Assembly (NCBI GenBank): GCA_945920185.1
Contig: CAMEJP010000002.1
Location: 1 to 64,000, forward strand
Length of the DNA: 64,000 nt
Reading direction: 5' to 3'
DNA from: an uncultured Eubacterium sp.
GTDB taxonomy: Bacteria > Bacillota > Clostridia > Lachnospirales > Lachnospiraceae
Within the stretch, counting starts at the first letter, position 1. The number at the start of each line of letters is the position of its first letter. A model generated the notes under the pieces. The model worked only from the letters and a program-made list of their open reading frames with translations. It was not told where the DNA came from and made no database searches. Below, in pieces: positions 1,293 to 4,203 of the stretch. Both the position numbers and the translations under genes were made by a program.

Positions 1293-1472
1293 TTATTCAA
1301 CATTTTTCGACACCTCATTTATGAGCTTGGATGCATCGTAAAGCTGCTCTGCAAGGATGTAAAAGGCGTTTTCTTCGGGCGTGCCACGAAACATATCTGC
1401 AGTCTGTAGTTGGCGAAGCACACACTCAACGCCACCGATTTTCCACTCGGCAATCATAAGTTTGTCTTGCAT
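1293..1472 (-). CDS. Small hypothetical protein downstream of relaxase
   Basis: A 59-residue acidic protein. The start was chosen at 1472 because an AAAGGTGGTG ribosome site lies just upstream on the minus strand; a longer in-frame extension to 1613 would overlap the relaxase and lacks a ribosome site. The C-terminal half is a predicted helix. It follows the relaxase by 82 bases in the same direction and probably shares its transcript. No family is recognised; similar tiny proteins are common at the ends of Firmicutes mob operons. Confidence 0.6.
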   Translation of the reverse strand: MQDKLMIAEWKIGGVECVLRQLQTADMFRGTPEENAFYILAEQLYDASKLINEVSKNVE

Positions 1473-1554: not shown

Positions 1555-3216
1555 TTAGCGATGTTTTCTTCGCGGTCCACGAGAAATCTCCGGCACATTT
1601 CTGACATCTTCAAGGTCGTGCTTTTTGATTAAGTAATCAACCGAATCTAAAGGATTTGAAAGAAAACCATCTGCTTCTTTGCCAAGAACAGCAAGGTCTT
1701 CATCGCTTACTTCATCTCTGCCACCGCTAACAAGTTCGATGGTTTTAGCAGCACGCTTTTCTTCATAACCACGATAATTCAAAGCATATTTGGATGCAAG
1801 TTTCAATGTAAGAGGCGTAGCCTCATTTATTGCACACTGGTAATCAAATAGCTTTTGAGTTAATTCTTGGTAATAATTTTTAAGCGTTTCACGATACCAA
1901 GGGTCTTCCTTTTGTTCTAAGTACCACATCATTTTTTTGATGTCAAAAATGGAAATCATAATAGAACTACGTCGCTCTTCCATATTGCTGGCAAATTCAT
2001 TTGCAATATCAATATCATCCTCGGTAGCTTTGCTTACATCGAAATTCCTAAGTTTTCTAATTCCTTCAAACAACTGTTTACTCTTTGTGTTAGCTCTGCT
2101 TGCGAGTTTTCTAGCTCCGTCACGGATTCCTGCAACTCCTTCATTACTGTCTGACAGGAACGAGCTAATTCCAAGGATTTCTTTGATTGTTCCTCGTAAT
2201 CCGCTACGAGCTTCTTGAGTGAATCTATCTGTTTCTGTAGCTTTTCTATCGTTTCTCTCAAGGAAATTATCTCTGCTTCCAGAGTAGCCACCTCTTTTAA
2301 GAGCTTTTTCTCCCTCGCCACGGACATCTCGTACTCGCTCTTCCAATTCTCTTTTTCCCTCGCAGATTGCAGCTTCTTCAAGGTCGAATTGGTCTTGTAA
2401 GTCTTTGTTTCTTGTAATCTCATTTATAATAGCCTCCTTTGAAAAATCCATATTAAAGGTTTTGGTTAAAGTCTTATCTCTGACTGTAACCGTACCAAGT
2501 TCAAAAGTAATATATTTCTTTTTCCAGTTAGAAGACACGACAATATCATATTTGCGGTCAAGCTCCCCGATAAATTCATCCTTAGTACAAGCGTAGGATA
2601 GAACATCAAGTATTTCTGTAGCAATTTCTGATAGTCTTGCCTGCTTTTTGTTGTCGGTAAGCAAATTGTAGATGTCTTTCTTATAAGAAGTGATTGTACC
2701 CTCTTCGATTTTCTTGCCGTTAAAGTGCTTTCCTTTTTGAGTAATGCTAAGACCATAGGACGCACATAATTCATCGTTTATATCTTTTGCATTTTGCAGT
2801 TCCTCCGGGTTCATATGATATTTGTGTCCGTCTATCATTGATACAGAGTTAAGCACGATATGACAGTGTAAGTGTTCTCTGTCAGTATGTACTGTCACAA
2901 GCGTACAAAACTCTGGAAATACTTTTTCTACCCATTGTTTAGCAATATCAAGAGCAACTTCCGGTGTAATGTTTTCATCTTTATGCCAAGAAATAACGAA
3001 GTGCTTATACATTCGCCCACCGGTTTTATTGAAAAGCTCTTTGGTCTGCATAAAATGTTGAAACACTTTATCTGCAGTAACATCAAGATGAGGATAATCT
3101 CCAAGTACAAGTGTTAGGTCAGATGTAGTTTTCTTATCTTGTAGCACATATCCAAGAGTATTTCTTAATGCTGCTCGGGAACCTGAGCGTGAATTAACTG
3201 ACTTAATAACTGACAT
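1555..3216 (-). CDS. Relaxase / mobilization nuclease (MobP-like)
   Basis: A 553-residue relaxase of the PF03432 type, which nicks one strand at oriT and stays covalently bound to it during transfer. Visible motifs are a likely catalytic tyrosine at residue 23 (LGYVLQDKKT) and the metal-binding histidine cluster at residues 110-119 (HTDREHLHCH). An AAAGGAGGTG ribosome site lies 8 bases from the start. The start overlaps the end of mobC by 52 bases, which points to coupled translation. The region of residues 265-393 is a charged linker and carries a second, nested gene in another frame (2034-2423). The C-terminal third is helical with no recognised domain. Family assignment is firm; the exact MOB subclass is an inference. 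Confidence 0.9.
   Translation of the reverse strand: MSVIKSVNSRSGSRAALRNTLGYVLQDKKTTSDLTLVLGDYPHLDVTADKVFQHFMQTKELFNKTGGRMYKHFVISWHKDENITPEVALDIAKQWVEKVFPEFCTLVTVHTDREHLHCHIVLNSVSMIDGHKYHMNPEELQNAKDINDELCASYGLSITQKGKHFNGKKIEEGTITSYKKDIYNLLTDNKKQARLSEIATEILDVLSYACTKDEFIGELDRKYDIVVSSNWKKKYITFELGTVTVRDKTLTKTFNMDFSKEAIINEITRNKDLQDQFDLEEAAICEGKRELEERVRDVRGEGEKALKRGGYSGSRDNFLERNDRKATETDRFTQEARSGLRGTIKEILGISSFLSDSNEGVAGIRDGARKLASRANTKSKQLFEGIRKLRNFDVSKATEDDIDIANEFASNMEERRSSIMISIFDIKKMMWYLEQKEDPWYRETLKNYYQELTQKLFDYQCAINEATPLTLKLASKYALNYRGYEEKRAAKTIELVSGGRDEVSDEDLAVLGKEADGFLSNPLDSVDYLIKKHDLEDVRNVPEISRGPRRKHR
2034..2423 (-). CDS. Nested coiled-coil protein inside relaxase gene (MobB-like?)
   Basis: A 129-residue reading frame lying wholly inside the relaxase gene, same strand, different frame. 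It has its own near-perfect ribosome site: AAAGGAGG, then 9 bases (CTATTATAA), then ATG. The product is almost entirely a coiled coil from residue 35 to 125, with Leu/Ile/Val repeats spaced by charged residues (for example EVATLEAEIISLRETIEKLQ). Such a coherent heptad pattern is not expected of a chance shadow frame. Nested accessory genes inside relaxase genes are known in ColE1-type plasmids (mbeB and mbeD within mbeA) and in staphylococcal mobilizable plasmids (mobB within mobA). A relaxosome or membrane-tethering role is inferred by analogy only. Confidence 0.75.
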   Translation of the reverse strand: MRLQETKTYKTNSTLKKLQSAREKENWKSEYEMSVAREKKLLKEVATLEAEIISLRETIEKLQKQIDSLKKLVADYEEQSKKSLELARSCQTVMKELQESVTELENSQAELTQRVNSCLKELENLGISM

Positions 3217-3578
3217 ATTGGTTGCACCTCCTTTATCAATCCCATCACATCATCTGTCATTTGGTTTAGTTCATTCTTTGTAGGTAATTGTCCAGTGGTA
3301 TTTGCCACCTTTGCCATCTGATTATGATTAACGCCCATTCCTCTGGCTTGATTAAGTATGCCAATAAGATTAGCGTTAATATCTCTCAAATCTTTTCTAG
3401 TATCCGTATCAACCACTTTTGCTCCTTTGATGGCATTAAGAATAAATGATTGAGCTGTCATGCCGGTATCATCAAGCTGTGACAAAAAGGAATCATATTC
3501 CTGCTCGGACATATAGAATTTAATTTGAATTGGTCGTTTGCGTTTCGGGTAACTGTCTATTTTTCTTTTTGTTTGCAT
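3165..3578 (-). CDS. mobC: MobC-family mobilization accessory protein
   Basis: A 137-residue relaxosome protein that would bind near oriT and help the relaxase open the nick site. The N-terminal part is strongly basic (KRKIDSYPKRKR), then a ribbon-helix-helix-like segment, then the MobC signature region around residues 68-95 (ANLIGILNQARGMGVNHNQM), related to the N-L-N-Q-I-A pattern of the family. An AAAGGAG ribosome site lies about 9 bases upstream of the start. It is first in the mob operon and overlaps the relaxase start by 52 bases. Confidence 0.85.
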   Translation of the reverse strand: MQTKRKIDSYPKRKRPIQIKFYMSEQEYDSFLSQLDDTGMTAQSFILNAIKGAKVVDTDTRKDLRDINANLIGILNQARGMGVNHNQMAKVANTTGQLPTKNELNQMTDDVMGLIKEVQPICQLLSQLIHAQVPEQH

Positions 3579-3784: not shown

Positions 3785-4203
3785 TTAGGGCTGAAAGCCT
3801 TAACTGGGTCCCGAGGGCTAGCCCTGGCAAGCGACCATTTGAGTCACTTCGTAAGAAGTGGGTACTCATAATGGGAAGCTTGCCTATCAGCAGATAAATA
3901 AAAAGTGGGATTGGATGGTCGTTTCAAGGGTGAAACTTCCAATCCCACTAATGCGTAAATTCTGCTGATGGTGGGTTTGCGATTTTGCCATGATGTGTCC
4001 AATATTGCAGCCGGTGTGTAAATTTGGATGCAGGTATTGAGGTTTGCATCGGGGCAAAATTGCTTCGTCATCGGCAACGATGGCGAACGGGATGGATATA
4101 ATTTTTTGGGTAAAGTCAGATTGGATAGATAAATATGTGATGTCATTTTGATGCCACTATATGCAGTCAATCTGACGTCATTTCTTTGTTTTTATCCATC
4201 CGG
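3785..4203 (+). ncRNA. Candidate large structured RNA or multi-hairpin DNA region
   Basis: Helices tile this gene-free stretch almost end to end: TTAGGGCT/AGCCTTAA (3785-3803); palindrome AGGGCTAGCCCT (3814-3825); GGCAAGC/GCTTGCC with inner GAGT/ACTC and CACTTC-GTAA-GAAGTG (3826-3884); TCAGCAGA/TCTGCTGA enclosing an 11-bp stem GTGGGATTGGA/TCCAATCCCAC and GTTTC/GAAAC (3887-3968); GCGATTTTGCC/GGCAAAATTGC (3979-4063); TTCGTCATCG-GCAA-CGATGGCGAA (4064-4087); an outer GGATGGATA/TATCCATCC with inner GTCAGATTG/CAATCTGAC (4088-4203). Two loops, GTAA and GCAA, are GNRA tetraloops only when read on the plus strand, which favours a plus-strand RNA. No protein reading frame fits. It matches no RNA class I can name; it could also be part of oriT or a single-strand replication signal. 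Confidence 0.5.

Follow-up and report, generated by a model that had tools for sequence, protein, structure and literature searches.

The window, as we call the whole 64,000-nucleotide (64-kb) stretch of DNA analysed here, begins at the end of contig 2 of a 2.09 Mb genome of an uncultured Eubacterium sp. (Lachnospiraceae). On its minus strand lies an element consisting of mobC, a MOBP relaxase gene and, inside the relaxase gene, a further ORF in the +1 frame (Table 1). The relaxase carries the motif HTDREHLHCH (HxDxxHxHxH), the three histidines of which are invariant in our relaxase alignment. A MobC/NikA-like protein (PF21983) encoded upstream of a PF03432 relaxase with this motif is the combination by which we recognised a pC221-type module, and it is present here. 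Because the coupling-protein family PF02534 had no match in the window's genome, the element would need a helper. The small ORF downstream of the relaxase gene possibly shares the mob operon; a family scan of a translation covering most of this ORF gave no match. A near-perfect inverted repeat at 742-785 of the window (21-nt arms, 2-nt gap), located between two small plus-strand ORFs, is a probable terminator hairpin.

Table 1. Coordinates of the mobilization features in the window.
Feature	Position	Strand	Description
Small ORF downstream of relaxase gene	1293..1472	-	59 aa (MQDKLMIAEWK...); AAAGGTGG before start
MOBP relaxase (MobA/VirD2 type, PF03432)	1555..3216	-	553 aa; nuclease domain, predicted disordered linker ~294-392, helical C-terminal domain ~395-540
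Nested mobB-like ORF	2034..2423	-	129 aa; ATG at 2423, stop at 2034; +1 frame relative to relaxase; predicted single long helix, no membrane segment
Ribosome site AAAGGAGG of nested ORF	2433..2440	-	Spacer of 9 nt to ATG; based on sequence and on conservation of site and codons
mobC, NikA/MobC-like ribbon-helix-helix accessory	3165..3578	-	137 aa; PF21983, E-value 5e-9; overlaps relaxase start
Candidate oriT GGCAAGCTTCCC...GCTTGCCAGGGCTAGCCCTCGGGACCC	3806..3884	-	Upstream of mobC; resembles, by eye, the stretch upstream of mobC at locus L042

The sequence-only reading of this DNA had proposed a second gene hidden in the relaxase gene behind a perfect ribosome site, and we found the ORF as it was described: 129 codons in the +1 frame, with AAAGGAGG 9 nt before the ATG. 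The ribosome site includes the codons of relaxase residues Lys260 and Glu261 (AAG GAG). Against a background counted within the window, where 47 ORFs of 200 aa or more were scanned, it was the longest nested ORF on the same strand as its host and the sole one with a 6/6 match to AGGAGG, the runner-up reaching 4/6. When the synonymous codons of the window relaxase were shuffled, the nested frame stayed open in 0.75% of trials, the ribosome site not being counted; in some relatives it stayed open in 30-40%. RNA around the ribosome site and start codon folded more weakly than 200 of 200 shuffles. Another same-strand ORF in the relaxase gene (2466-2774, 102 aa, SD match 4/6) was rejected as a chance frame, as no ORF occurred at its offset among the relatives listed.

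Structure prediction assigned very different characters to the two products of the shared DNA. AlphaFold2 modelled the nested product as one helix spanning residues 3-124 (mean pLDDT 92), so that its description as an almost pure coiled coil stands. The relaxase over the nested ORF had been described as a charged linker, and this is borne out by pLDDT values below 50 at residues 294-392, while the nuclease domain and a helical domain at ~395-540, after the linker, were both fairly confident. The relaxase is thus predicted to be a disordered linker over the DNA where the nested product is predicted to be an ordered helix. Kyte-Doolittle profiles revealed a feature that was no part of the earlier description: the nested products of the window and of its relative L042 have no hydrophobic segment. 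In contrast to these, all ten products of the ruminococcal type and two related clostridial ones end in a single hydrophobic segment, and most of the longer Lachnospiraceae products have one to five. Among relatives, the C-terminal helical domain of the relaxase (window 1555-2034, residues ~395-553) occurs only in the L042 clade, which combines this extra domain with a nested product without a membrane segment.

Relatives were gathered in three ways: the same GTDB family was searched with the relaxase, genome contigs were searched with a profile, and another family search added more. The first yielded nine divergent relaxases with good matches, and all nine have a +1-frame ORF, preceded by a ribosome site, that begins ~793-796 nt into the relaxase gene. 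The relaxases of relatives carrying a +1 ORF at the homologous site are only 32-47% identical. Scanning genome contigs with a single relaxase as query returned no relatives, whereas a profile built from the relaxase alignment detected 80 loci; viral contigs contained only two weak relaxase relatives. Clustering at 90% identity left 63 non-redundant relaxases, which we scored for a +1 ORF of at least 60 aa with an SD match of at least 5/6. Homologous relaxase genes were where the sequence-only reading had suggested looking for stops or a lost ribosome site; the nested frame is open behind such a site in 43 of the 63, mostly with a 9-nt spacer. The best such ORF lay in the +2 frame in none of the 63.

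The alignment placed the nested start within the relaxase motif [S/G]KExLxxEF. The ORF is present in 45 of the 62 relaxases aligned, and its start is exactly 16 nt from the Lys codon in 41 of these and 13 nt in three. The staphylococcal plasmid pC221 was scanned at 10 nt, from an upstream TTG in the same frame, and the ATG of its MSMKD... start is also at 16 nt. As scanned, the start codons of the 45 carriers were 38 ATG, five GTG and two TTG. We repeated the codon-choice test without SD-based selection of cases, and in that repeat the Lys-Glu pair was coded AAG-GAG in 37 of 39 carriers versus one of 11 non-carriers (p = 7e-8, a descriptive value, as the carriers are interrelated). Non-carriers include Clostridium-type relaxases of 312-318 aa. 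In Cetobacterium and Fusobacterium plasmids (L039, L040), a gene for a coiled coil with a membrane helix follows a shorter relaxase gene with no overlap, which may be the non-overlapping state of the same gene pair. A Ruminococcus relaxase gene (L091, offset about 765) keeps the motif and the ATG, and its nested frame stops after four codons; this is a natural loss of the nested gene.

A separate MOBP group from Ruminococcus, Oscillospiraceae and Clostridia (L092-L118) also nests an entire +1 gene in the relaxase gene. Its products, of 119-175 aa, have a hydrophobic segment at the C-terminus and belong to no clear Pfam family, and selection on the gene is visible in five sets. The relaxase tree pairs the window with L042 as sisters (SH-aLRT 84), beside the overlapping Lachnospiraceae group, and sets the ruminococcal nested group apart from them. 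It thus seems that full nesting arose, or was retained, on more than one occasion.

As the window copy had no close relative in the collections searched, selection was measured in sister clades. Four genomes (L042, L043, L137 and L139) make up the sister clade with the window layout, in which the gene of a 531-aa relaxase encloses an entire 112-codon ORF. Synonymous constraint in the relaxase frame, named in the sequence-only reading as the mark of a selected nested frame, proved strong exactly over the ORF: relaxase third positions vary in seven of 112 nested codons versus 127 of 313 control codons (p = 5e-13), and the two ends of the ORF mark the limits of this dip in variability. Where a site is synonymous for the relaxase but nonsynonymous for the nested frame, the rate of change is 0.053 within the ORF versus 0.37-0.38 outside. 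The dNN/dNS of the nested frame is 0.22 versus 0.45 and 0.73 in control stretches, approximate ratios from a simple OLGenie-like count with no multiple-hit correction; since the controls are also below 1, this ratio is not decisive by itself, and the argument is carried by the drop at relaxase-synonymous sites together with the position pattern. Within the ORF, change is fastest at position 1 of the relaxase codon, equivalent to position 3 of the nested one.

Of eleven further sets, ten showed the same flip of the fastest position. These were all five that comprise ruminococcal and clostridial relatives with full nesting, and five of six other Lachnospiraceae sets; in the sixth (three members, 363-431 aa), positions 1 and 3 were about equal. 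Judged by these substitution patterns, both frames code for protein in the sister clades, and the nested one is under the tighter constraint. For the window copy itself, purifying selection is supported only indirectly, through conservation of its product: the nested products of the window and L042 align at z = 7.5 (0 of 500 shuffles), both ends included, compared with z = 3.6 for the relaxase over the same DNA. From the cross-clade profile comparison of nested proteins, we claim product homology no further than the sister clade, through the window-L042 pair. An early profile match between nested products was discarded, as the window sequence was present in both profiles.

Family searches did not place the window product. 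Against Pfam, NCBIfam and PHROGs it had only generic coiled-coil matches among the matches listed, with no match to PF03904 (DUF334) among them, and a tblastn search of plasmids found no relative. PF04837 (MbeB_N), which ColE1 MbeB matches at 3.6e-22, was absent from the best 25 of its 103 weak generic coiled-coil matches. PF19506 (DUF6040) was not among the matches listed for the window product or for that of another locus (L002); four of six longer overlapping Lachnospiraceae products scanned match it in their C-terminal part, as does pCD-METRO. The DUF6040 and DUF334 models cover C-terminal parts beyond the overlap.

The likeness to staphylococcal mobB and ColE1 mbeB/mbeD, which had been offered as an analogy, turned out to be closer than proposed. 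In the staphylococcal mobC-mobA-mobB module of pC221, mobC lies upstream of a MOBP relaxase gene as in the window, and the start of MobB is identical to that of the window gene in both frame (+1) and place in the relaxase motif, exactly 16 nt from its Lys codon. Its ribosome site is AAAGGGG, and its N-terminal part is coiled-coil-like, as in the window product. Unlike the shorter and wholly nested window gene, pC221 mobB runs past the relaxase end and encodes two membrane segments and a DUF334 (PF03904) C-terminus; the two products have no significant sequence similarity. In ColE1, mbeA overlaps mbeB and mbeD (PMC6118388). These two nested genes, where the window has one, lie wholly inside a MOBP relaxase gene (HEN variant) in the +1 frame, with SDs drawn from relaxase codons, as in the window. 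Like the window gene, mbeB begins at the end of the relaxase domain, by eye roughly a dozen codons ahead of the window start when the motif is taken as reference, but MbeB has its own family (PF04837) and a membrane segment, neither of which the window product has.

DUF6040 proteins (PF19506) are encoded downstream of, or overlapping, clostridial relaxase genes, for example on pCD-METRO, and occupy the same position and +1 frame in sister relaxases. Their N-terminal coiled coil begins inside the relaxase gene, and their C-terminal half is membrane-associated, a half that the window protein is without. In the MOBQ plasmid RSF1010/R1162, mobB is a small accessory gene inside the mobA relaxase gene. 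There the relaxase family differs from that of the window, and the likeness drawn here is one of arrangement. According to its title, as cited in PMC3297438, the study of Parker & Meyer (2007) found that the transport signals of the R1162 relaxase depend on MobB, a small protein. By place and build, we read the window gene as a MobB-like accessory gene by analogy; because it has no DUF334, DUF6040 or MbeB_N match and no membrane segment, we do not file it in any of these families.

We consider it likely, on comparative sequence evidence, that the nested ORF is a true MobB-type mobilization gene, translated in its own right from within the relaxase gene of a mobilizable element. Alternatively, it could be a gene of the mob region that does not help transfer but serves entry exclusion, or regulates or chaperones the relaxase, much as has been suggested for ColE1 MbeD, a short coiled-coil protein; this reading strikes us as unlikely. 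It fits the soluble-looking, all-helical window product, which resembles short MbeD (labelled mobilization/exclusion in RefSeq), and the lack of a membrane segment throughout the window clade. However, the start site matches that of pC221 MobB and is near that of ColE1 MbeB, not that of MbeD.

Programmed frameshifting could also reach the ORF, producing a fusion of relaxase and coiled coil with AAGGAGG as stimulator. In favour are the existence of SD-like frameshift stimulators and the invariably +1 frame. Frameshifting could dispense with a start codon, though, and nearly all 45 carriers keep one at 16 or 13 nt from the Lys codon, with the spacing of an initiation site. This argues against the mechanism, which we regard as very improbable. 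We give hardly any credence to an RNA or DNA signal within the relaxase gene as the source of the constraint: synonymous constraint alone would fit signal and protein equally, but the nested third position is fastest inside the ORF, the constrained interval equals the ORF, the RNA at the start is unusually unfolded and there was no Rfam match. An open frame and ribosome site arising together by chance are just as hard to credit and, as far as selection tests on sequences can tell, already refuted, since although charged low-complexity linkers can leave other frames open, as the shuffles of some relatives illustrate, deeply diverged relaxases share the start, ribosome site and frame, frozen relaxase third positions in the sister clade end at the ORF borders and codon choice is tied to ORF presence. 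The nested ORF is a real gene.

For a MobB-like gene, comparison among relatives demonstrates two overlapping protein-coding frames in sister clades, a conserved internal ribosome site and a relaxase codon choice coupled to that site. With start site and frame conserved, ribosomes would reach the ORF through AAAGGAGG, formed largely by the relaxase's own conserved Lys-Glu codons. The product would form a long alpha-helix, which probably assembles with copies of itself into a coiled coil, and we infer that it joins the MobC-MobA-oriT relaxosome. Since most relatives have C-terminal membrane helices, these proteins in general probably anchor the relaxosome at the membrane, where they would present the relaxase to the type IV secretion channel of a helper element. 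In the anchor-less window clade, the nested protein might, more speculatively, act as a soluble partner of the relaxase, with docking left to the C-terminal helical domain of the relaxase or to a helper protein. The relaxase would pay little for the overlap, because its own protein there is a predicted disordered linker.

A wider proposal sees an ancient start site of dual use where the MOBP relaxase domain ends: clostridial, ruminococcal, staphylococcal and perhaps enterobacterial elements would express a +1 coiled-coil partner from it. KExxxxEF would then be conserved partly for the ribosome site and start codon of that partner, and the window clade would be a derived, anchor-less form in which the relaxase C-terminal domain took over membrane docking. 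We offer this tentatively, as possible rather than probable.

Gene exchange among gut Clostridia relies heavily on mobilizable elements, whose relaxosomes have been little studied. A widespread branch of these elements has an extra protein preserved by selection, and DUF6040, and by position DUF334, can be linked to one start site in the relaxase gene. The finding provides experiments with correct starts. It also exemplifies overlapping genes of which, over the shared DNA, one is predicted to encode a disordered linker and the other an ordered helix. No paper on DUF6040 was found in the literature searched.

The gene had been missed or mis-started in the two annotated Clostridia plasmids with the ORF whose annotation we checked. 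On the Waltera plasmid, an ORF of 192-199 aa is absent from the annotation. On pCD-METRO (L037, NZ_OM972905.1; 1682-2695), RefSeq starts the DUF6040 protein at 1994, although the open frame reaches back to a GTG at 1682 that has, within the relaxase gene, AAAGGAGG as its ribosome site. The annotation probably leaves off about 104 residues at the N-terminus.
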